From a virus, in IMG/VR virus record IMGVR_UViG_3300011116_000462, positions 1 to 24,052 of that record: a stretch of DNA of 24,052 nucleotides; one strand, given 5' to 3'. Made by a program: the position numbers and the translations under genes. Positions 12,814 to 23,582 of the stretch are shown here, in pieces; position 1 is the first letter of the stretch, and each line of letters opens with the position of its first letter. Under the pieces are notes generated by a model that had not been told where the DNA came from, ran no database searches, and worked only from the letters and a program-made list of their open reading frames with translations.

Positions 12814-13359
12814 CTATCTGGGGAAACTCAGGTTTGCACCATGAAACCGGTAGAGCCAGGTGTGTTCTTGTACGCACGCGAATCGAGCGCCATGATCGAG
12901 TGCGCGGAGCCAGAAGTCGTGATCCTCGTACCCGCTGCGCGCGTGCGCGTCCCACCCGAGCTCGACGCAGAGGCTCGTGCGGATCAGCGTCGTCGCGGGG
13001 ATGTAGTTGACGTGCCGGAGTTTCGTCGCGTCGAACGGCTCGTTGACGCCGAACCCGTCGCGGCCCTCGACGTCGCAGTACGAGTAGACGATGTCCGCGT
13101 CGGTCGTGTGATTGGCGAGGCGCTCGAGATGCTGCGGATACATGATGTCGTCGTCGGCGATCTGCGCGACCCACTCGCAGTCGGCAGCGACGAGACTCGG
13201 AAGCATCCGGTTCAGCATCGTCGCGACGCCGACGCGCTCGTGATCTACGCCGATCGCGTGAATCACTGGACGAAGCGTCTGCTGCTCGACGCGACGAATG
13301 CACTCAGCACGAAACTCGTGCCGCTCCGGCAAGCTGACCGTGACGACTCCGATCCTCAT
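12814..13359 (-). CDS. Glycosyltransferase family 2 (GT-A fold), last gene of glycan cassette
   Basis: The protein has about 181 residues. It opens MRIGVVTVSLPERHEFRAEC and IRRVEQQTLRPV, the first strand and helix of GT2 enzymes. WVAQIADDDIMYPQHLERLA carries the metal-binding Asp triplet (about 69-71). SGYEDHDFWLRALDHGARFA is the ED..W..R acceptor-side motif, and LYRFHGANLS follows. The ATG at 13359 has GGAG seven bases upstream; a GTG six bases earlier is too close to it. It would transfer a sugar from a nucleotide donor. At this length the acceptor region is minimal. The acceptor may be a virion protein, inferred from its place in the head module. Confidence 0.85.
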   Translation of the reverse strand: MRIGVVTVSLPERHEFRAECIRRVEQQTLRPVIHAIGVDHERVGVATMLNRMLPSLVAADCEWVAQIADDDIMYPQHLERLANHTTDADIVYSYCDVEGRDGFGVNEPFDATKLRHVNYIPATTLIRTSLCVELGWDAHARSGYEDHDFWLRALDHGARFACVQEHTWLYRFHGANLSFPR

Positions 13360-13386
13360 TCCCACACTCCGCGCTCGTTTCCCACG

Positions 13387-14052
13387 TCAGGAGCGTTCGG
13401 CCCACCTGGCGCGCAGCTCGTCTCGCTGTCTGCACAGCTCTGCCCACGCCTCCCACACGCTCTCGCCGAGCATCGCCTGCGAGTACTCGCTCGACAGGTC
13501 GGGCGCCTTGTGCGTATTCGATCCGATCAGCCTGGCCGGCGAGCCCGCGACCTTGCTGAATGGCATCACGTCACGCACGGCGCTCGAGTTTAGCCCGATC
13601 ATCGCGGACTCGCCGATGATCGTCCACGGGTGCGTGACGACGCCCTGCCCGAACGTCGCATCCTCGCCGATCAGCGTGAAGCCGCCGAGCGCGCTGAAGC
13701 TGCCGAGCGTCGCGCGATCCCCGACGACGCAGTCGTGCGCAATATGCACGCCGGCCATCAGGAGCGCGTCCTCGCCAATGATCGTCTCGACGAGGATGCC
13801 CTGATGGATCGTCGCGTACTCGCGAACGCACGCGCCGCGACGTACCACGACGCCCGCATCGCGCACGCGCGCCGTGACGGGCGACGGGTACGAGCCGCGA
13901 TGCTGCGGCGGCGCGCCGATCGTCGCGTGCGCACCGACGTACGTATCAGCCTCGATCCGCGCCGGGCCCGTGATGACGGCATACGGCTCGATGATCGCAC
14001 TCGGATGAATGTCGACGTCGCCGCGAATGATGATCGAGTCATGCAGCTGCAC
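13387..14052 (-). CDS. LpxA-like left-handed beta-helix acyltransferase
   Basis: The 221-residue protein has hexapeptide repeats from DIHPSAIIEPYAVITGPARI to MIGLNSSAVRDVMPFSKVAG. GAPPQHRG, VREYATIHQG, LLMAGVHIAHDCVVGD and VAGSPARLIGSN match LpxA segment by segment. His106 corresponds to the catalytic His125 of E. coli LpxA, with His103 beside it. The C-terminal helices (about 184-220) fit the LpxA C-terminal domain. LpxA moves an acyl chain from acyl carrier protein to UDP-GlcNAc; relatives acylate amino-sugar nucleotides. In a phage of a presumed Gram-positive host a lipid A role is unlikely, so a nucleotide-sugar modification is inferred. The GTG start has GGAGA upstream and overlaps the dehydrogenase end by 14 nt. 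Confidence 0.85.
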   Translation of the reverse strand: MQLHDSIIIRGDVDIHPSAIIEPYAVITGPARIEADTYVGAHATIGAPPQHRGSYPSPVTARVRDAGVVVRRGACVREYATIHQGILVETIIGEDALLMAGVHIAHDCVVGDRATLGSFSALGGFTLIGEDATFGQGVVTHPWTIIGESAMIGLNSSAVRDVMPFSKVAGSPARLIGSNTHKAPDLSSEYSQAMLGESVWEAWAELCRQRDELRARWAERS

Positions 14053-14932
14053 GAGCAGTCTCCGTTCCGGCGTCCTCGAGGATTCGCGTCACCGTCTCGA
14101 ACACGCGCGTCGACACGACGCGACGATCACGAATCTGGTCGTACGCATCGTCCAGGCGGCGAGTGATGAGGTCCGTCTGGTCGGGCGCCACGTACTCGTG
14201 CACGCCCGTCTGCGTGTGGGTCACGAGCGTGTCGCGCGTCTGATCCCACGTCACCGCGCCCTCATCGCAGATGATCCGAATCATCCGCGACTGGGGCCCG
14301 ACGGATCGCGCCGCGACGACCTTCGCGAACGCGCCCGTGCTGCTCGACAACGCGACACTCGCCGACACCGAATCACGCATCGTCGACGCAACGCTCCACT
14401 CCGTCGCGTCGTCAAGATCGACGAGCAGGCTCAGATCATGCACACACAGATCCGTCAGCACATCTTGCGAAGACCGGTCGAGGCTCGTCGTGCGCGTCGC
14501 GAACACGTGCTGCACGCACCCGAGCCTCGCGACGCGCTCTTTCGCGAGCTGCCACTTCGGCGCGACGAGCAGCGTGTAGTCGACGATCAGACGCCGATCC
14601 TTCTCCGCGAAGACGCGCAGCACGCGATCCGCGTCGCTCATCGTCGTCGCGCACGGCTTCGCAGCGATGACGTGCGCGTATCTCGTCGCGCTTGTCACGC
14701 ACGCCTCGACGCTCTCTGAGATCGGCGTCGCGACGATCACGAGCTCGGGCTTCTCCGCGTCTATCGCGTCCTCGAGCGACGCGTACGCCTCGATGTTCGC
14801 CAGAGTCGCGATCGCGCGACGCGTCGCGATCGGATCAGCGATGCCCGCGAGGAAGTACTTGTCGTGCTCGCGGACGCGATCGGCGAGACGCGCGCCCCAC
14901 GAGCCGTACCCGCACACAAGGGTCCGGATCAC
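14039..14932 (-). CDS. Gfo/Idh/MocA-family NAD(P)-dependent sugar dehydrogenase
   Basis: The protein has 297 residues from the GTG at 14932. The Rossmann start VIRTLVCGYGSWGARLADRV has GxGxxG at 8-13. AAKPCATT holds Lys92, equivalent to the Lys of the EKP motif (Glu replaced by Ala). LTDLCVHDLSLL carries the catalytic-pocket Asp161 and His165. Such enzymes oxidise or reduce sugar nucleotides, for example the C3 position of UDP-HexNAc acids (WbpB/WlbA type). The frame extends to 15256, but that part overlaps the GT2 gene; the GTG overlaps the upstream stop (GTGA). With the LpxA-like neighbour it could build a modified amino sugar, though no aminotransferase is present. Confidence 0.85.
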   Translation of the reverse strand: MIRTLVCGYGSWGARLADRVREHDKYFLAGIADPIATRRAIATLANIEAYASLEDAIDAEKPELVIVATPISESVEACVTSATRYAHVIAAKPCATTMSDADRVLRVFAEKDRRLIVDYTLLVAPKWQLAKERVARLGCVQHVFATRTTSLDRSSQDVLTDLCVHDLSLLVDLDDATEWSVASTMRDSVSASVALSSSTGAFAKVVAARSVGPQSRMIRIICDEGAVTWDQTRDTLVTHTQTGVHEYVAPDQTDLITRRLDDAYDQIRDRRVVSTRVFETVTRILEDAGTETARAAA

Positions 14933-15576
14933 GCGTCCCACGCATTCACCTTCCGATTCCGCACGCTCCACTCGCTCACCAGCGGCACCTCGTGCTCCGC
15001 CAGGCCGTGATACCGCGCGTTGTGAATGCCGATGTTCCGCGCGTGCGACCACTCGTTCTTCCGCGCGAGATGAGTGTCCGAGTTGATCGTGCTCGAGTTG
15101 TCGTGCCCGACGCGCGCCGCGGAGTACGACACGCGCACGCCTAGGCGCCGAGCACGCTCCTCGTAGTCGATGTCCTCCATGTACGCCGGGTAGTACGCCT
15201 CGCAGAACAATCCGACGCGCTCCGCCGCAGCACTGCTGATCCACGCGCAGCACCATGGCGGCGAGCCGGCGAGCGTGATGCCTTCCGGATCAGCATCGCG
15301 CGACAAGTCGTCCCACGCTCCGGCCTCGAACCACGCGTCCGAGTTGAGAAGCAGCCATCCGCTCGCGAACGGCAATAGCTTGATGCCGAGATTCCAACTC
15401 GCGGGGACGCCGAGATTCGCCGGCAGTCGCAGCACGCGCACGCTCTCACGCTCACCCGCCTGGTACGCATCACCATTGTCGATCACGAGGATGCGCACGC
15501 CGAGCGGGATCGAGTCGAGGCACCGGTTGAGCAGGTCGTACCGGTTCAGGACGGGGATGATGACGTGGTCGATCAC
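14929..15576 (-). CDS. Glycosyltransferase family 2, rhamnosyltransferase-like
   Basis: The protein has 215 residues from the GTG at 15576, which overlaps the GT4 stop. It begins VIDHVIIPVLNRYDLLNRCL and has LVIDNGD, LPANLGVPASWNLGIKLLPF and LLLNSDAWFEAG, with the metal-binding NSD at 78-80. YYPAYMEDIDYEERARRLGV contains the ED.D...R motif typical of WbbL/rhamnosyltransferase-like GT2 enzymes, and RVGHDNSSTIN follows. It is a complete GT-A domain without membrane segments, so it is cytosolic. The frame up to 15609 is a shadow. It probably adds one sugar in a short glycan built by this cassette. Confidence 0.87.
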   Translation of the reverse strand: MIDHVIIPVLNRYDLLNRCLDSIPLGVRILVIDNGDAYQAGERESVRVLRLPANLGVPASWNLGIKLLPFASGWLLLNSDAWFEAGAWDDLSRDADPEGITLAGSPPWCCAWISSAAAERVGLFCEAYYPAYMEDIDYEERARRLGVRVSYSAARVGHDNSSTINSDTHLARKNEWSHARNIGIHNARYHGLAEHEVPLVSEWSVRNRKVNAWDA

Positions 15577-16826
15577 TCGGCTGCGAGCTCGGCGAGCAGG
15601 GGACGCCACGACTCGTCGAAGACCTTGTCGGCGTCATAGTTGGCGGCGAACGCGATCGCATCGTCTGAGTCGCCGCGCGGCTCGCGATACGCCGCATTCA
15701 GCGCGTCGACGATGCTGCCGACATGCGGCGTGAAGAACCACGACTTCTGCATCGGGTCCCAATCGGGCTGTCCCGCGACGAGCCAGCCGGGCCCGACGAG
15801 CTCGCTCGACGCGGCGAAATCACTGACGATCACGCGCGTTCCGCATGCCTGCGCCTCGATCGTCGGAATGCCGAACCCCTCCCCCATGCTCGTCTGCAGG
15901 CACACGTCAGCCATCGTGTAGAACGCGGCGAGCGACTCTTGCGGAATGCCATTCCGATACGCGAACTGATCGACGAACCGGATCTGCTCCGGCTTGATTC
16001 CCGCCGCCTTCGCGAGATCGTGCAGGTTGATGCCGCTCATCGAGCCGTGCGACTCGGTATGCATGTAGAGGATCGCGTCAGGCTTATCGAGCGCGAAGAT
16101 GCTGAACGCGAGGAACGCCTGGCCGAACGCCTTCCGGCACGGCGCGATGCCCTTGTTCGCGCTATTCATCATCACCACGAACGCGTCCGCCGGGATACCG
16201 TGCAGCTCGCGCGGCGCGATCATCCCCGCCGGCGTCGACACGCTCCTGGTCGGCTTGAAGACCTTCTCGATCGCGTGCGGAATGTAGTGCGCCTTGATGC
16301 CGTCCACGTCGAGCATCTCCTGCCCGAATCGGCTCATCGCGATAGGCGTGACGTTCGGTCGGCGACACCACTCGCTCACTTCGGGCGGAGCGGGCTGATG
16401 ATCGACCGGCACCCACGAGCAGATCCGCGGAATCTTCTGCAGGCTCTGATTCTGCAGGTAGACCCACACGTCGTAGAGCGTGAACACGACGCGCTTCGCG
16501 TCGGGCTCTCCTGCCGCCCACTGCATCGAGTACGCCTCCAGGACGTCATCCGAGTAGTTGGACAATCCACGCGGGAACAGGTGGATGCCGTCCCACTCGA
16601 GCATCGTGCCCTCGAGGCCGTAGTTGCAGGCGACGCTGACCGAGTGGCCCGCCTTGTGCATTCGCGTGACGACCTGGCTGGTCTGCGTGCCGTATCCCGT
16701 ATTACTCCAGGGCGAGTTTGACGCCCACGTGATCCGCAGTCGCGACGCCGTCTTCTTGATCGGCGGCTTCGGCTTCGGAGCCGGCTTGCTTGGCGCCTTG
16801 GTGGCGCGACGATGAGCACGATTCAT
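15573..16826 (-). CDS. Glycosyltransferase family 4 (GT-B fold), first gene of glycan cassette
   Basis: The protein has 417 residues. A basic Pro/Lys-rich N-terminus (about 1-28, MNRAHRRATKAPSKPAPKPK) is followed by an N-terminal Rossmann domain with ITWASNSPWSNTGYGTQTSQ, where the Gly-rich loop binds the acceptor side. YIPHAIEKVFKP and RFVDQF mark the linker. TSMGEGFGIPTIEAQACGTR contains the retaining-GT motif EX7E (Glu316, Glu324). The ATG has GGGAG five bases upstream, behind a strong hairpin that separates it from the capsid gene. It is cytosolic, and probably puts the first or main sugar on the acceptor. The donor sugar is unknown. Confidence 0.9.
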   Translation of the reverse strand: MNRAHRRATKAPSKPAPKPKPPIKKTASRLRITWASNSPWSNTGYGTQTSQVVTRMHKAGHSVSVACNYGLEGTMLEWDGIHLFPRGLSNYSDDVLEAYSMQWAAGEPDAKRVVFTLYDVWVYLQNQSLQKIPRICSWVPVDHQPAPPEVSEWCRRPNVTPIAMSRFGQEMLDVDGIKAHYIPHAIEKVFKPTRSVSTPAGMIAPRELHGIPADAFVVMMNSANKGIAPCRKAFGQAFLAFSIFALDKPDAILYMHTESHGSMSGINLHDLAKAAGIKPEQIRFVDQFAYRNGIPQESLAAFYTMADVCLQTSMGEGFGIPTIEAQACGTRVIVSDFAASSELVGPGWLVAGQPDWDPMQKSWFFTPHVGSIVDALNAAYREPRGDSDDAIAFAANYDADKVFDESWRPLLAELAAE

Positions 16827-16845
16827 CGGTCTCCCTAGGATGGGT

Positions 16846-16884
16846 GCCAGCCTCCCCTCACATCGTGCGTGAGGGGAGGCTGGC
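16846..16884 (-). terminator. 16-bp stem hairpin between capsid gene and glycan cassette
   Basis: The arms GCCAGCCTCCCCTCAC (16846-16861) and GTGAGGGGAGGCTGGC (16869-16884) pair perfectly around a 7-nt loop. No U-tract follows on the minus strand, as is common for actinobacterial terminators. It lies 28 nt after the capsid stop and 20 nt before the GT4 start, so it probably lets only part of the capsid transcription continue, or protects the capsid mRNA. Confidence 0.75.
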
Positions 16885-16912
16885 GAGCGGTTCTTCTGAG
16901 TGGTGTCGCGTA

Positions 16913-18121
16913 CTAGGACGCGGCGCCCTGGAAGTACTTGACGTGCGACGTCTGCGGCAGGTTGCCGTCGACGCGGATCTGCGCGCGGAACGTGACGAGG
17001 CCCTGGTTGAAGGCGAACTCGTCGGACCGGTCGAGCTGGAGGCCGCCGCCCGCGATGCGGACCATGTACGACTTCAGGTCGCCGAAGATGACCGACTTGT
17101 TGCCGGTGCCCGTCGACGCCATGTGCGGGTTCTCGTGCATCGGGTAGCCGAGGATCAGGTCGCGCTGGTCGGCGGACACGGCCGGGCTGAAGATGTAGTA
17201 GCCGCCGCTCGACTGGAGCTGGCGCATCTTCGAGATGCTGGACGCGTTCGCCATGAAGCCGGCGCCGGGGCGCTGACGCGCCGCGGTGTCGACCGAGTAG
17301 ACGAGGTCCATGATGTTCGCCGCGGAGAACACGCCGGCGGTGCCGGTCGCGCTCGTGACGCCCGAGCCGGCGGCCGCGACGATGCCCTTGGGCTCGACGG
17401 TGCCGGTGCCGACGGTGAGCTTGTTGCCGACCGAGTAGCCGATGCCGTTCGCGGTCTGCTCGGCGAGGAAGCCGAGGATGTCGACGCCCGCGTCGGCGAT
17501 CAGCTCCTGCGACAGCTGCGTGATGAACGCGTACTTGTACGCGCTCAGCGTGACGAAGCTGTTGAAGACCGGGTCGGACTCGCCGATCGCGGAGCCCTGC
17601 GCGAACGCCGTGCCGGCCGAGTACGTCGACAGGCTCGGGATCTGCAGCGACTCGCCGCCAGCGGTGTTGAGGTGCGTGGTGACGTTCGGGTCGAGCATCG
17701 GGCCCGTGTAGCGGGCCAGCATGAGGACCTGGTTGTAGAACGAGGTCGGGACCGGCGCGCCCGTCGACGTCGAGTAGACGTCGCGCTGCTCGGCGTCAGG
17801 GCCGAACAGGTGCGTGCGGATCTCGCCCTTCGCCATCGCGCGGAGGATCTCCGCGTCGCTCGAGGCGGGCTTGTGGTCGCGGACGACGCGCTCGATGCCC
17901 TCAGCGGCCTTCGCGATGCGCTCCTCGCGCTTCTCGGCCTCCTGCACGGACTCGATCACGGCGGCGCGCTGGTCGAGATCCGCGTTGATGCGGTCCCACT
18001 GCTCGCGCTCTTCGGCGGTCAGGTCGCGGGCCTCTGCGGCCGCGGTGTCGAGCAGCGCCTTGGCCTCGTGCCACGCCGACTGGCGCGCCTCGACCTGCTG
18101 CTTCAGGTACGTCTCGCTCAT
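16913..18121 (-). CDS. Major capsid protein, HK97 fold
   Basis: The protein has 402 residues. Residues about 1-105 are a charged helical delta domain (EARQSAWHEAKALLDTAAAE, EEREQWDRINADLDQRAAVI) that works as internal scaffold. The mature part starts near TSTGAPVPTSFYNQVLMLAR and shows family features: IPSLSTYSAGTAFAQGSAIG, FVTLSAYKYAFITQLSQELI, GFLAEQTANGIGYSVGNKLT, LILGYPMHENPHM and VIFGDLKSYMVRIAGGG. The delta domain should be removed by the protease encoded just upstream, with cleavage probably around residues 95-120. It builds the icosahedral head. A 150-nt leader with a promoter candidate, and a hairpin after the gene, suggest high expression. Confidence 0.95.
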   Translation of the reverse strand: MSETYLKQQVEARQSAWHEAKALLDTAAAEARDLTAEEREQWDRINADLDQRAAVIESVQEAEKREERIAKAAEGIERVVRDHKPASSDAEILRAMAKGEIRTHLFGPDAEQRDVYSTSTGAPVPTSFYNQVLMLARYTGPMLDPNVTTHLNTAGGESLQIPSLSTYSAGTAFAQGSAIGESDPVFNSFVTLSAYKYAFITQLSQELIADAGVDILGFLAEQTANGIGYSVGNKLTVGTGTVEPKGIVAAAGSGVTSATGTAGVFSAANIMDLVYSVDTAARQRPGAGFMANASSISKMRQLQSSGGYYIFSPAVSADQRDLILGYPMHENPHMASTGTGNKSVIFGDLKSYMVRIAGGGLQLDRSDEFAFNQGLVTFRAQIRVDGNLPQTSHVKYFQGAAS

Positions 18122-18170
18122 CGCGGAGACTCACTTTCGTCTAGAGGGTTTGCGCTTTGCAAATCAGGAC

Positions 18171-18210
18171 CGCGGCTCCGCAGGCCCAAAATGCTCGCGC
18201 GGCTCCGCAG
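18171..18210 (-). repeat. Two 13-bp direct repeats in the capsid gene leader
   Basis: CTGCGGAGCCGCG occurs twice on the minus strand (18198-18210 and 18171-18183), 27 bp apart. Each copy contains the small dyad GCGG-AG-CCGC. They lie between the candidate promoter and the capsid start, so in mRNA they could form two small hairpins. Confidence 0.5.
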
Positions 18211-18222
18211 ACGAGCACACAC

Positions 18223-18231
18223 ATTCTACAA
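18223..18231 (-). promoter_or_regulatory. Candidate capsid gene promoter (TTGTAGAAT)
   Basis: TAGAAT (18223-18228) matches five of six -10 consensus bases and is preceded by TTG, giving the nonamer also found before the major tail protein. The predicted start site leaves a leader of about 95 nt. The -35 position (TTCTTG at 17 bp) is weak and lies inside the palindrome at 18243-18264. Confidence 0.45.
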
Positions 18232-18242
18232 ACCCGCCGGAC

Positions 18243-18264
18243 GTACAAGAACGCGTTCTTGTAC
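18243..18264. promoter_or_regulatory. 22-bp perfect palindrome upstream of the capsid gene
   Basis: GTACAAGAACG is followed immediately by its reverse complement CGTTCTTGTAC. A dyad this long without spacer is either a binding site for a dimeric protein or a hairpin with a tight loop. It starts 8 nt after the stop of the protease fusion gene and covers the -35 region of the candidate capsid promoter. Confidence 0.6.
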
Positions 18265-18271
18265 TAGACGA

Positions 18272-20536
18272 TCACGCGGCGATGCGCTTCGCGTCGAGCA
18301 TCTGCTGCAGCTCGACGACGCTCGCGACGGGCTCGGGCTGCTTCTCGCGAAGCTTCACGACGCTCTCGGCGAGCAGGTCGGCCTGCTCCGTCGTCAGCGT
18401 CTCGCCACGCTCGAGCGCGTCCATCGCCGCGGCGAGCGTGTCCGCGTCCAGGCCGGTCTTGTCGGCCAGCGCGTCGACGCTCCGCACGGACGCCGCGGTC
18501 GCGGCGTACGCGGCGAACGGCGCGACCGAGACCTCGTGCAGGCGAATGTCGCGCAGCTCGCGATTGTTCTCGTCCGACCAGTAGTCACCGCCGGCAGGGA
18601 CCGTGAAGCCGAAGCTCATCGTCGTGATGTCGCCACGCTTGAGGAGGTACGCGAGGTCGCGGCCTTCGGTCGTGTCGGGCAGATCCGCCTCGACACGCAG
18701 GCCCGTCGCGTCCTCCGACAATCGCAGCGTGCCGGCGCGACGCGACGCGAGCACGCGACCCGTGTCGTGATTCATCAGCAGCTTGATCTCGTTGCGGCTG
18801 CGAAGCGTCTTCGCGAACGCGCCAGGCTTGATGATCTCGGTGAACGGCAGCGGCTCGCTCGGCGAGTCGAACACGGCCGCGTACCCGTAGAACGTCATCC
18901 CGCCGGCGTCCGCGGTGTCGCTCATCTCGCGCATCTCGATCTGCGCGTGCTCCATCACGCGATGCTCAACGCCGTTGGCGTCCTCGTGCGCGCGCGTCAC
19001 GGGCGCCGAGAACTCGATCGGCCTGCCCGTCCGCACCTTCTGATCCGGCACGACGTTACCCGTCGGGTCGATTGCCGCGGCCTCGTCGACGCTCGTCGCG
19101 CTCTCGGGCTGCGTCATCAGGATCTGCTGCTGCGCGCCGATACTCGACCGCAGCTGCCACGCCCACTTCTGGTGCGCGTCGATCCGCTCGGCGATGAAGT
19201 TGGCGATGCCCTGCTGATTCTCGACCTGCGACTGCGCGTACGCCTCCTGGTACCCGTCGAGGATGTCGTCGTTCAGGTCGAGCAGGCTCTGCGCCATCGC
19301 GGCCGGCGTGTCCGGCGTCAGCGCGGGCTCCGCGAGCTCGCGCAGCTGCTGGAAGTCGCTCAGGCGGAACGGCGCGTCATAGCCGAGCTTGAGGATGTTC
19401 TCGGCGATCGGGTCGATCGACGAGTCCGCGTCCTCGTAAATCGCTCCGAACAGGGAGTGGTACTCGGCGAATGCGGGGCCCTTCACGTTCCAGTGGTAGC
19501 CGTGCGCGATGAACTTGAACGCGACGACGTCGCTCAGCTGCTCCGCGAGAAGCGTGCAGAGGGTCTCGGGAGCCTCGAGGGCCTCCATCGCGTCTTCGAT
19601 CGTCTGATCCATGTCCATCGGTAGGGCCTTTGTCTCTACGACTGCGTCGGGCCGATAAGCATCGGCGAGGGGTTTCACGGTATCGGGAAGGCTTGTCGGA
19701 TCGACGCTCGGCACGCCGAGGTCCTCGTACGCGGCGCGAACGTCAGCGTCATTGTCGATCGCGAGGATCACGTCGTACGTGTCGAGCAGCGCTCGCATCG
19801 TGTCGCGCTTGTACGCGATCGTGTCAGCGCTCGTGTTGTTCGTGAACAGCATCGCGTACTCGACGTCGAGATCGTCGAGGAGCGCGGCCGTCGCGTCGCG
19901 CTCGTCTTCGGTACGCCCCGTGATGATGACGATGCTCGCGGGGATCTCTTCGAGGAACGCGATCGTCTTGTCGATCGGGTCGCGCCCGTTCCGCACGATC
20001 GTGTCATCCACGTCGCACACGACCAGCACCGGCTTGTCGCTCGCCGGGTCGAGCGCGCGATTCGTGTCAGCGTCGAGCTGCGTGACCTTCCGCTCGGCCC
20101 ACGCGCTCGCGGTCTCGCCGCCCCACAAGAGGAACGCGACGTAGCCGGGCGTCTCCTCGCCCGCCTTATCCCAGCCCGGCTTCTTGTCGACGGCGTGCCG
20201 CGCGAACCACGCCGGCATCTTCCGAACCTTCGTCTCGCTGAGCGCGCCCTTGCTCGCCATGATTCGCGCATCCGCGATCGTCGCGCGGACCAGACCATCA
20301 CCGCCACGACCAGCCTCGTACAGGTCGAGGCCCTTACGCGCAGCCGCGGCGATCGTGCTCGTAACGGTCAGGCTGACCGCGCGCGTCTCGAAGCGGCGCG
20401 AGCGAATCAGCTCCTCATCGCCGATCGCGAGGCCCTGCATGATCGCCTTGCGCTTCGCAGCGCGCGATCCCGCCTCGTCCGTGTACGTGTAGCAGTGCCC
20501 AGCATCGCCCCACTTCCACCCCGACTCGCCGCTCAT
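18272..20536 (-). CDS. HAD phosphatase - Dps/ferritin-like - HK97 prohead protease fusion
   Basis: About 754 residues from the ATG at 20536, which has AGGAG at 20543-20547; the frame also opens at a GTG at 20557 overlapping the portal stop (numbers here count from that GTG). Residues 10-160 are a phage-specific segment (GWKWGDAGHCYTYTDEAGSR). At 176-285 is a HAD phosphatase with all motifs: CDVDDT, ITGR (Thr213), Lys250 and AIDNDAD. At 330-475 is a Dps-like domain with His355, His367, Asp382 and Glu386, the spacing of the Dps ferroxidase ligands. From about 550 to 690 is the HK97-family protease (His597 in LLMNHDTGR, Ser648 in TTMSFGF), then a helical tail. The protease matures the capsid; the roles of the other domains are unknown. 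Confidence 0.87.
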   Translation of the reverse strand: MSGESGWKWGDAGHCYTYTDEAGSRAAKRKAIMQGLAIGDEELIRSRRFETRAVSLTVTSTIAAAARKGLDLYEAGRGGDGLVRATIADARIMASKGALSETKVRKMPAWFARHAVDKKPGWDKAGEETPGYVAFLLWGGETASAWAERKVTQLDADTNRALDPASDKPVLVVCDVDDTIVRNGRDPIDKTIAFLEEIPASIVIITGRTEDERDATAALLDDLDVEYAMLFTNNTSADTIAYKRDTMRALLDTYDVILAIDNDADVRAAYEDLGVPSVDPTSLPDTVKPLADAYRPDAVVETKALPMDMDQTIEDAMEALEAPETLCTLLAEQLSDVVAFKFIAHGYHWNVKGPAFAEYHSLFGAIYEDADSSIDPIAENILKLGYDAPFRLSDFQQLRELAEPALTPDTPAAMAQSLLDLNDDILDGYQEAYAQSQVENQQGIANFIAERIDAHQKWAWQLRSSIGAQQQILMTQPESATSVDEAAAIDPTGNVVPDQKVRTGRPIEFSAPVTRAHEDANGVEHRVMEHAQIEMREMSDTADAGGMTFYGYAAVFDSPSEPLPFTEIIKPGAFAKTLRSRNEIKLLMNHDTGRVLASRRAGTLRLSEDATGLRVEADLPDTTEGRDLAYLLKRGDITTMSFGFTVPAGGDYWSDENNRELRDIRLHEVSVAPFAAYAATAASVRSVDALADKTGLDADTLAAAMDALERGETLTTEQADLLAESVVKLREKQPEPVASVVELQQMLDAKRIAA

Positions 20537-20556
20537 CGTGCACTCCTGGACAGGCA

Positions 20557-21903
20557 CTAGGCACCCACCTGGTACGCGCTGAGCGGGTCTTCGGCGTCGA
20601 TCTGGCTGATCGGCTGCAGCATCACCGTCGGGACGCCGGTGTGCGCGATCGCGGGCAGGCCGAGCTCGGCGAGGACGGCCTGCGGCTCGAAGCCGGACTG
20701 GATCAGACGCTGCGCGATCATCGTCTTCTTGTCGAGGTCGGCGAGATTCGCCGCGTCCAGATCCATCGAGTGCAGCGGCACGCGGACCGTGTCGCCACCA
20801 TCGACGGGCGCCATGTCCTCGAGCGTGCGCACATCGTTGATCGAGAACGCGCCCGCGGCCAGCATCGTCTGGTAGTACGCGGACCTCGCGGCCGAGTCGC
20901 CGCGCATCAGCCCGTCGACGTTGTACTTCACGAACACGCCCTGCGGCAGGAGCCGCGTGAACGCCTGCTCGAGCTTGTAGATGTACGGGCGCAGCGTGTG
21001 CACCACGAAGTTGATGCTGTTCTGCTCGAGCGAGTTATACGACGCGGCGCCCGGCTCGATCACGCCGAGCATCGACGGAGGCACGCGGAACGCGCGCGCG
21101 ATCTCCTCGACCGCGAACTTCCGCGACTCGATGAACTGCGCCGTGTTGTTGTCCGGCGTCGTCCGCTGAAACTTCGCGCCGCCGAACAAGACGCCCGTCC
21201 GGTGACTCTTCCGCAGGCCCTTGTGCTCGTTCTCAAACGCGTTGGCGAGATCGAGCGCCTGCTCCTTCGTCAGGTTCCCCGGATACTCGATGATCCCGCT
21301 CGAGTTAGACCCCGAGAAGAATCGCGCCGCGAACTGCTCCAGCGCGCTCGCAAGACCCAGATTCTCCTTCACCAGGTCGACGCGGCTCTTCCCACGCAGC
21401 TGGCCCGGCAGCACGAGTTCCTTGATGTGCAGCATCTCGTCGTGCGTGATCGTGTCGCGATTGTCGTAGATGTAGAGCGGCCGAGCCCCGTCGCTCGTCC
21501 TCGACACCTGCACCTTCAGCGGATTCAGCACGATCAGGCCAGCGATGCCGCGCTCGTCGCGAAGCACGCGAATGAACGCGTTCCCGTTCAGCAGCATGCT
21601 CGCGATCGCGAGCTGCGTCAGATCGCTGAACGTCACGCCGATATCCGGCATATCCAGCCACTCGGGCTTCGGCCGGTACGGACGCCGCGTCCCATTCACG
21701 CGCTGGAACGAGTCGACCGGGAGCGTGCTGATCGAGTCCGCGATGATCCTCACGCACGCATAGACCGCGTTGACCTTGAGGACGTTCTCCTGGTCGATGA
21801 CGACGCCAGAGTTTGTGGAGAATAGGATCGAATCGCCCGACGCGAACAGCGTCTGATACGAGATCGCGCGCTTCTCCGCGCCCGGCAGCAGATTCCCGAG
21901 CAC
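20557..21903 (-). CDS. Portal protein, HK97 family
   Basis: The protein has 448 residues. VNAVYACVRIIADSISTLPV, MLLNGNAFIRVLRDERGIAG, HIKELVLPGQLRGKSRVDLV, FFSGSNSSGIIEYPG and REFRVPPSMLG-like FRVPPSMLGVIEPGAASYNS are all standard portal motifs. It forms the dodecameric ring at one head vertex through which DNA is packaged and ejected. The GTG start shares a base with the TAG of the small membrane-protein gene, and its own stop again forms TAGTG. The C-terminal 40 residues (LPAIAHTGVPTVMLQPISQI) are variable. Confidence 0.94.
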   Translation of the reverse strand: MLGNLLPGAEKRAISYQTLFASGDSILFSTNSGVVIDQENVLKVNAVYACVRIIADSISTLPVDSFQRVNGTRRPYRPKPEWLDMPDIGVTFSDLTQLAIASMLLNGNAFIRVLRDERGIAGLIVLNPLKVQVSRTSDGARPLYIYDNRDTITHDEMLHIKELVLPGQLRGKSRVDLVKENLGLASALEQFAARFFSGSNSSGIIEYPGNLTKEQALDLANAFENEHKGLRKSHRTGVLFGGAKFQRTTPDNNTAQFIESRKFAVEEIARAFRVPPSMLGVIEPGAASYNSLEQNSINFVVHTLRPYIYKLEQAFTRLLPQGVFVKYNVDGLMRGDSAARSAYYQTMLAAGAFSINDVRTLEDMAPVDGGDTVRVPLHSMDLDAANLADLDKKTMIAQRLIQSGFEPQAVLAELGLPAIAHTGVPTVMLQPISQIDAEDPLSAYQVGA

Positions 21904-22085: not shown

Positions 22086-23582
22086 CTACCACGAATAGAA
22101 GCCTGGTACTACAACTTCTTCGGCCTGCAGCGTTGATCCGTACACCGCCATCACGCACGCCACGAGCGCGTCGATCTTCTGCGTCTGCCTGACCTTCGAT
22201 ACGCGCCAGCCACGATCCGTCATCTGCGCGCCCGCACCGAGCACGTGACTCGTCAGCTCCGCATCTGTCCCGGCATGCACGATCCGGCCCTCCTGCAGAA
22301 GTGTGTAGAAACTCTGATACGCGGTCGCCATCGGCGCGCTGTTCTGCGCGAGCAGCACCATCGTCACGCCATGATCGTGATCGAGAACCGTCGCTGACCG
22401 CTCGAAGAATCGCGGATCGTAGAACACGCCCGACACGTTGCACCGCTCCGCCACGCTCAGGATGTGCGCCTCGACGTCGAGCAGGTTCACGTTCACGCCA
22501 GGCTGCGGCATCCACACGCGCGACTCGACCACGATCTTGTCATCGTCGGGCCGGCGCCACGCCGCCACGACCGCGCTCGAGTCGTGCACGATGCCGATGT
22601 CGACACCGAGCGTCACGCGACTCCCGTCCGGGATCGTGACGCCCCGCTCGATCGCGGCCTGCCACCAATCCGCGTGAATCCACGCCTTCGTGCCCGCGAC
22701 CCACACGCACCCGTGCAGCTGCAGAACCTCCTCGTTCGACAACTCGGGATTCGCCGCCTGCCTGGCAAGGAACTCCGTCGTGATCCACGATGCGGGATTC
22801 GCGAGCTTCATCGCGTCGACATCGTGCGGATCACGCGTCGGCGCCGAGTAGTTGTAGACCAGCGTCCGCGCGTCAAAGTTGCGACTGATCGTCAACCCCG
22901 GATGCTTCTCCAACTCGCCAAGCGCCTCGTTCTGATCGATCATCCTGCCGAGAATCGACGCCTCGCGCTCATTCGCATCCCCCGCAGTCGTGATCGTGAA
23001 CACCTGCGTGTTCCGGCGCGCACCACCACCCGTCGTCAACGCGGCCCACGCCTTCCGCTGCGACGGCTTCGTCCACGCATGCAGCTCGTCGCAGATCACG
23101 AGACTCGGGTTGTACCCGTGCAGATTGTCCGCGCTCGACGCCATCCGCAGGATCTTCCCACCACCATCCGCGCGCGCGATCTCGCCCTGGTACTCGCGCA
23201 GCACACTCAACTCGAGCAGCTCGGGCGAGCGCCGAATGAACCCCACACAAGCGTCGAAGAGTCGGCCCGCCTGCTTATCGGACGCGGCCGCAAGCAGGAT
23301 CTCCGGCTGCGTCTGATCGTTGAAGAGCCGGTAGAGCGCGTACGCGGCCAGCATCGTCGTCTTGCCCTGCTTCCGACTGACGCAAAGCGCCACGCTCGAG
23401 AACGCCGGCGTGCTGCCCGACTCGTCCATCGACGCCAACGCCTCACCCATGAACTCGAGCTGCCACTCCTCCAACACCAGCGGCTTCCCCGCGAACTGGT
23501 CGACCGACTGGATCAGGAAGTGCTCGCACCACTTCGCGAAGTGGCTCACTCGATTGCTCTTCGCATACGCGCGCCAACGCAC
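22086..23582 (-). CDS. Terminase large subunit
   Basis: The protein has 498 residues. The ATPase domain has a Walker A variant CVSRKQGKTT (67-76), Walker B LVICDE (161-166) and a coupling region ALTTGGGARRNTQVFTITTA. The nuclease domain has Asp328 in LGVDIGIVHDSSAVVAAW, Asp389 in VFYDPRFF and a C-terminal acidic site near KIDALVACVMAVYG. It cuts concatemeric DNA and drives it into the head through the portal. The GTG start overlaps the small-subunit stop (TAGTG). Family Terminase_1, common in HK97-type siphophages. Confidence 0.95.
   Translation of the reverse strand: MRWRAYAKSNRVSHFAKWCEHFLIQSVDQFAGKPLVLEEWQLEFMGEALASMDESGSTPAFSSVALCVSRKQGKTTMLAAYALYRLFNDQTQPEILLAAASDKQAGRLFDACVGFIRRSPELLELSVLREYQGEIARADGGGKILRMASSADNLHGYNPSLVICDELHAWTKPSQRKAWAALTTGGGARRNTQVFTITTAGDANEREASILGRMIDQNEALGELEKHPGLTISRNFDARTLVYNYSAPTRDPHDVDAMKLANPASWITTEFLARQAANPELSNEEVLQLHGCVWVAGTKAWIHADWWQAAIERGVTIPDGSRVTLGVDIGIVHDSSAVVAAWRRPDDDKIVVESRVWMPQPGVNVNLLDVEAHILSVAERCNVSGVFYDPRFFERSATVLDHDHGVTMVLLAQNSAPMATAYQSFYTLLQEGRIVHAGTDAELTSHVLGAGAQMTDRGWRVSKVRQTQKIDALVACVMAVYGSTLQAEEVVVPGFYSW

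Follow-up and report, generated by a model that had tools for sequence, protein, structure and literature searches.

The window analysed here is the whole of a 24,052-base stretch of an IMG/VR virus record (IMGVR_UViG_3300011116_000462, positions 1 to 24,052), whose minus strand carries the head module of a tailed phage in the order terminase, portal protein, a fusion open reading frame (ORF), major capsid protein, and then glycosyltransferase and tail genes. The fusion ORF sits at the position of the head protease, between the portal and major capsid genes, and encodes in one polypeptide, from the N to the C terminus, a helical module (Nx), a HAD phosphatase-like domain, a Dps domain, and an HK97-type prohead protease domain of the S78 family (Table 1). 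In this single frame, Pfam Ferritin/Dps matches residues 336 to 473 (E = 4e-15) and Pfam Peptidase_S78 (PF04586) matches residues 546 to 695 (E = 9.5e-42). The original prediction, made from the letters of the window without database searches, had claimed HAD, Dps, and HK97-type protease parts in one frame, and its ORF, strand, coordinates, and quoted motifs all proved exact. Translation probably starts at the ATG of residue 8 (position 20536), which lies behind AGGAG and gives a protein of 754 amino acids. As an internal start for separate translation of the Dps or protease part, only a single GTG with a Shine-Dalgarno-like GAGGA (residue 282, position 19714) was found, which is insufficient to claim one. 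An AlphaFold2 model (run on 56 sequences) contains disordered linkers at residues 295 to 314 and 476 to 522, and the linker between the Dps and protease domains is a plausible processing region.

Table 1. Features of the fusion gene and its neighbours in the window (residues numbered from the GTG codon)
Feature	Positions	Strand	Remarks
Whole fusion ORF	18272..20557	minus	761 codons from GTG 20557, stop-free
N-terminal segment, residues 8-55	20393..20536	minus	Disordered in AlphaFold2 model; by eye like the short N-terminal module of the phiPsal1 and L096/L104 proteases
Nx, residues 56-170	20048..20392	minus	Conserved helical domain, no assigned function
HAD phosphatase-like domain, residues 176-295	19673..20032	minus	DxDDT, TGR, Lys250, DND
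Acidic linker, residues 296-330	19568..19672	minus	Mostly disordered
Dps domain, residues 331-473	19139..19567	minus	Four long helices and short BC helix
His355 codon	19493..19495	minus	E. coli Dps His51 equivalent
His367 codon	19457..19459	minus	His63 equivalent; +12 from His355
Gly371 codon	19445..19447	minus	At Asp67 position (+16); missing fifth ligand
Asp382 codon	19412..19414	minus	Asp78 equivalent; +27 from His355
Glu386 codon	19400..19402	minus	Glu82 equivalent; +31 from His355
Long linker between Dps and protease, residues 476-530	18968..19132	minus	Residues 476-522 below pLDDT 50
Peptidase S78 (HK97-type prohead protease), residues 546-695	18473..18922	minus	His597, Ser648
Portal protein gene	20557..21903	minus	Directly upstream of fusion ORF; portal stop overlaps GTG
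Major capsid protein gene, HK97 type	16913..18121	minus	Directly downstream of fusion ORF
Large terminase gene	22086..23582	minus	

The Dps part also matches PHROG 3636 (E = 1e-22) and Dps sequences of the PDB (E = 6e-14). Its AlphaFold2 model is a canonical Dps bundle with a predicted local distance difference test score (pLDDT) of mostly 95 to 98 and helices at residues 331 to 357, 363 to 390, 399 to 405 (BC), 418 to 445, and 449 to 473. VIA-align matched this model to dodecameric Dps proteins, the best being MrgA (2chp), with a Z score of 23.2 and a root mean square deviation of 1.3 over 145 residues; a non-ferritin outcome was not seen. The motifs HWNVKG (355 to 360), YHSLF (366 to 370), and IDPIAENI (381 to 388) hold the residues equivalent to the His, His, Asp, and Glu ligands of E. 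coli Dps, whose reference sequence served only as a ruler for ligand positions. The offsets between these ligands are those claimed in the original prediction, and its equation of the site with that of E. coli Dps stands for the four residues and fails at the Asp67 position.

Across 75 distinct Dps domains fused to S78 and 54 distinct free ones from phages, the residues corresponding to His355, His367, Asp382, and Glu386 never change. The ferroxidase site of Dps is assembled from two subunits, so the invariance of the ligands argues for at least a working Dps dimer. It also bears on the idea that the bundle is a mere oligomerisation core, which clusters the protease in the prohead and for which iron chemistry is irrelevant. 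Dps is a strong oligomer former, variable N-terminal extensions are common on phage proteases, and Nx occupies a similar place, all of which would suit such a core; however, if the bundle were no more than a core, some of the four ligands should have been lost, and we give this idea very little credence.

The HAD domain contains motifs I to IV (CDVDDT at 181 to 186, ITGR at 212 to 215, Lys250, and AIDND at 266 to 270), matches PHROG 415 (E = 1e-9), and is nearest to the phage polynucleotide kinase (PNK) phosphatase and acid phosphatase B families. Motif IV varies among relatives, reading DNN in L084:3718-6054 and END in L004:4887-6803; therefore, some of them may have a weakened phosphatase or none. 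Nx modelled alone is all-helical with a pLDDT of 91, and no known fold was found for it among PDB folds (best Z score, 3.9). It also lies C-terminal of S78 in some 70 other viral ORFs and is widespread among phage head proteases, on either side of S78. In the protease domain, His597 and Ser648 are invariant in 72 of 72 fused homologues.

Four scans of viral contigs yielded 94 ORFs in which Dps and S78 share a frame; once seven contigs fetched twice were removed, these correspond to 87 contigs from many metagenomes (window included) and to 84 distinct ORF sequences. Thus, the search for the same architecture in other phages that the original prediction had proposed revealed a recurrent fusion. 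Five domain orders were found, namely, Nx-Dps-S78 (49 ORFs), Dps-S78 (30), HAD-Dps-S78 (11), Nx-HAD-Dps-S78 (3), and Dps-HAD-Nx-S78 (1). Among the 93 loci besides the window, a portal gene lies upstream at 84 and a capsid gene downstream at 63; where one is absent, it may lie past the end of the contig or have escaped the models used. A tree of 95 Dps domains contains at least 5 changes between the fused and free states and at least 22 changes among all architectures, so that fusion and shuffling appear to have occurred repeatedly, with the deep branches and long rows of the tree being unsure. In a large clade (e.g., L206:2489-4678), the linker between Dps and S78 holds an Hva1_TUDOR domain and an unnamed conserved module (GSYKLQFAD...GIFAVAGVLNGARGG).

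The ratios of nonsynonymous to synonymous substitution rates among the window, L003, and L004 were 0.05 to 0.18 for Dps, 0.10 to 0.22 for HAD, and 0.14 to 0.20 for the protease; by these ratios, which for Dps are the same as or lower than for the protease, purifying selection acts on both domains alike. The window is a metagenomic contig, is very GC-rich, and contains long antisense ORFs, which could favour an assembly or annotation artefact joining separate genes. However, the recurrence on 87 contigs from many metagenomes, the purifying selection in every tested domain, the lack of stops, and the conserved flanking genes leave this explanation with practically no probability, and it was rejected; the sequencing error that the original prediction had named as a danger is likewise not supported. 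In one search across about 85,000 species genomes, no cellular genome showed the fusion and only four Dps relatives came up, all of them short ORFs without a protease; the fusion therefore looks viral. Among isolated phages, no fusion was seen in the phage collection.

The same Dps domain is also joined to other head proteins. It is fused to an XkdF-type protease in L148 (a single contig only), to a portal/protease protein in L085, and to a zeta-kinase minor-head protein in L006 and L147. In addition, L087 and L088 each have a free Dps ORF whose start overlaps the ORF ahead of it; in L087 that earlier ORF has matches to XkdF-like head protease families and is followed, a few genes on, by a capsid gene. 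A free Dps gene lies directly after the capsid gene in L263, L264, and L267 and one ORF further in L262 and L265. Dps thus occurs on several head carriers and free within head modules, which suggests that the common factor of its placements is the head and not one enzyme. Other longer Dps proteins, in L135, L143, L145, and L103, contain DUF5824, DUF3721, or unknown parts.

These placements strengthen, and do not prove, the packing inside capsids that the original prediction had proposed. We consider it somewhat probable that the gene encodes a head-maturation protease which carries a ferroxidase cargo into the head. HK97 gp4, an S78 protease, is packaged in the prohead, and by its membership in the S78 family the fusion protein would enter the prohead as well. 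We infer the oligomeric state, iron chemistry, processing, and retention or injection along the following lines. The C-terminal S78 domain would take the whole protein into the prohead together with the capsid protein, as in HK97 gp4; because S78 proteases are packaged there, each protease copy should bring one Dps and one HAD phosphatase domain inside the shell. The Dps domains would pair and perhaps form cages. Dps proteins oxidise Fe2+ preferably with peroxide, and such oxidation would limit hydroxyl-radical damage to packaged or just-injected DNA, while the HAD domain, being of the polynucleotide 3'-phosphatase type, could repair damaged ends, such as 3'-phosphates from oxidative breaks. 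Control of iron and peroxide in the surroundings of the DNA, either within the particle or at entry, would be the likeliest use. The protease would probably cut itself in the disordered linkers during maturation, and the N-terminal part would stay as an internal head protein.

Several points weigh against this proposal. The HAD match of the window alone (PF03767, 24.1 bits) is under the Pfam cut-off of 27; the close relatives L003 and L004 exceed that cut-off, and the HAD motifs are largely kept. The usual fifth acidic ferroxidase ligand is replaced by Gly371 in the window, and its position is nonacidic in 71 of 75 distinct fused and 37 of 54 distinct free Dps domains. Since this position is Glu or Gln in several solved Dps structures, an acid there is usual and not universal and was not treated as defining. 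The Dps domain has a net charge of -14, its flanks are acidic too (-7 and -4), and a basic DNA-binding tail is absent; therefore, direct DNA binding by the domain is unlikely, and the DNA protection of the original prediction would probably not be achieved in that way. According to the title of structure 1o9r, the Dps of Agrobacterium tumefaciens protects without DNA binding, and a basic tail is found in some Dps proteins only and is not defining. Many free Dps genes of the family lie in stretches in which the models used detected no head neighbour. Finally, HK97 gp4 and its fragments exit the capsid after maturation, so the cargo may be lost. The Gly371 substitution, the acidic tail-less domain, the recurrence, Nx (residues 56 to 170), and the ATG start were all absent from the original prediction.

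The established removal of HK97-type proteases from heads would also suit an explanation in which Dps acts in the cytoplasm late in infection, with the fusion supplying a large ferroxidase dose during head making, which maturation would then remove or destroy. Expression of late structural genes is high, and free Dps genes occur in many related phages and in isolates such as the cyanophage S-SRM01. However, the fusion of Dps to four kinds of head protein and the position of free Dps genes next to those of the head speak for the head and not for dose alone, which makes a purely cytoplasmic role decidedly improbable.

The proposed cargo-carrying protease combines features of several known systems. 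Like Dps proteins such as MrgA, Pseudomonas aeruginosa PA0962, and the members of PHROG 3636, the window protein has the predicted fold with a BC helix, the His/His/Asp/Glu ligands, and the HWN motif; unlike them, its Dps is embedded in a head protease, has Gly at the Asp67 position, and is acidic without a DNA-binding tail. It shares the S78 domain, the His and Ser residues, and the gene position between portal and capsid with HK97-type prohead proteases (gp4, Peptidase S78, PHROG 80), whereas its approximately 530 additional N-terminal residues (Nx, HAD, and Dps) distinguish it from them. The closest isolate protein is the prohead protease of Pontimonas phage phiPsal1 (AUV61415), with 53% identity over the S78 domain and an N-terminal Nx-like domain. 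However, the phiPsal1 protein has neither Dps nor HAD and contains a HiPIP-like cysteine motif instead.

Phage polyvalent proteins (Iyer et al. 2017, PMC5512222) also unite several dissimilar enzymatic domains in one protein linked to head genes; they are believed to enter the virion and to be injected, and among them are fusions of zeta kinase with head proteins. Like them, the window protein combines at least two dissimilar activity domains in a single chain and belongs to a phage with portal and terminase; it differs in that the carrier is an S78 protease. Dps and ferritin are absent from the main text of PMC5512222. By analogy, Dps and HAD may be effectors that are injected with the DNA into the next host and deal with iron, peroxide, and DNA ends just after infection begins, within minutes, and not in the particle. 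The shuffling with enzymatic modules and the zeta-kinase and minor-head carriers resemble polyvalent proteins, and a PNK-like phosphatase would suit work on broken DNA. However, no host target is evident. A Dps cage is about 9 nm and would not pass a siphophage tail folded, so that unfolded or separate subunits would be needed. Injection as the main role seems unlikely.

If the cargo is instead retained in the head, as in the reading we favour, a parallel with encapsulins arises. Encapsulins pair an HK97-type shell with a ferritin-like ferroxidase cargo, and the resemblance is one of analogy only, the shell here being encoded by a phage head gene. In contrast to encapsulins, the ferroxidase is Dps and not EncFtn or IMEF, the cargo is joined to a protease and not to a targeting peptide, and the shell also holds the viral genome. 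In a tentative extension, which we consider possible rather than probable, the capsid would be an iron-detoxifying compartment in which head-protein-borne Dps oxidises and stores iron beside the genome and, with the phosphatase, keeps the genome infectious under iron and peroxide stress.

Benler et al. 2021 (PMC8008677) interpreted free-standing Dps genes in gut phages as an aid to the host under oxidative stress during infection; these and the cyanophage Dps are likewise phage encoded and, unlike the window Dps, unfused. Until now, phage Dps was taken to assist the cell under infection, and a Dps domain in a head protease shifts it to the virion. The fusion is suggestive of viruses that package, alongside the genome in the head, a protein of their own that detoxifies iron and spares DNA. 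This gives testable forms to two open questions, namely, by what means the DNA of phages withstands oxidative damage outside cells and whether iron is present in phage particles. The head protease also joins the proteins known to carry packaged phage effectors. Full-text searches of open papers, with preprints and subscription papers outside their scope, found no Dps or ferritin-like domain on a head protease; within the papers searched, free phage Dps genes and polyvalent head-linked proteins are already known, and Dps on a head protease appears to be new.

The nearest match of the window portal protein is that of phiPsal1 (45% identity), and the terminase is only 28 to 29% identical to those of Streptomyces and Pontimonas phages. 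With no close isolate and such distant matches, an actinobacterial host is only a guess. Glycosyltransferase-like genes (12814-13365 and 15573-16826, within the region 12814-16826) come after the capsid gene and have the same placement in phiPsal1. An antisense ORF of 944 amino acids (16790-19624, plus strand) overlaps the protease and capsid genes and most likely just reflects the high G+C content.

A HiPIP-like four-cysteine motif (CxxC...C...C), similar to that of phiPsal1, is present in Dps-free S78 proteases, namely, all 8 with two Nx copies and 18 of 53 with one. It also occurs in three zeta minor-head ORFs and just ahead of Dps in L190 and L191; loci with the motif include L002:3809-5260, L007:4845-6599, L087:3103-5169, and L190:1-1300. 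The motif is possibly a second iron-linked module of head proteins.

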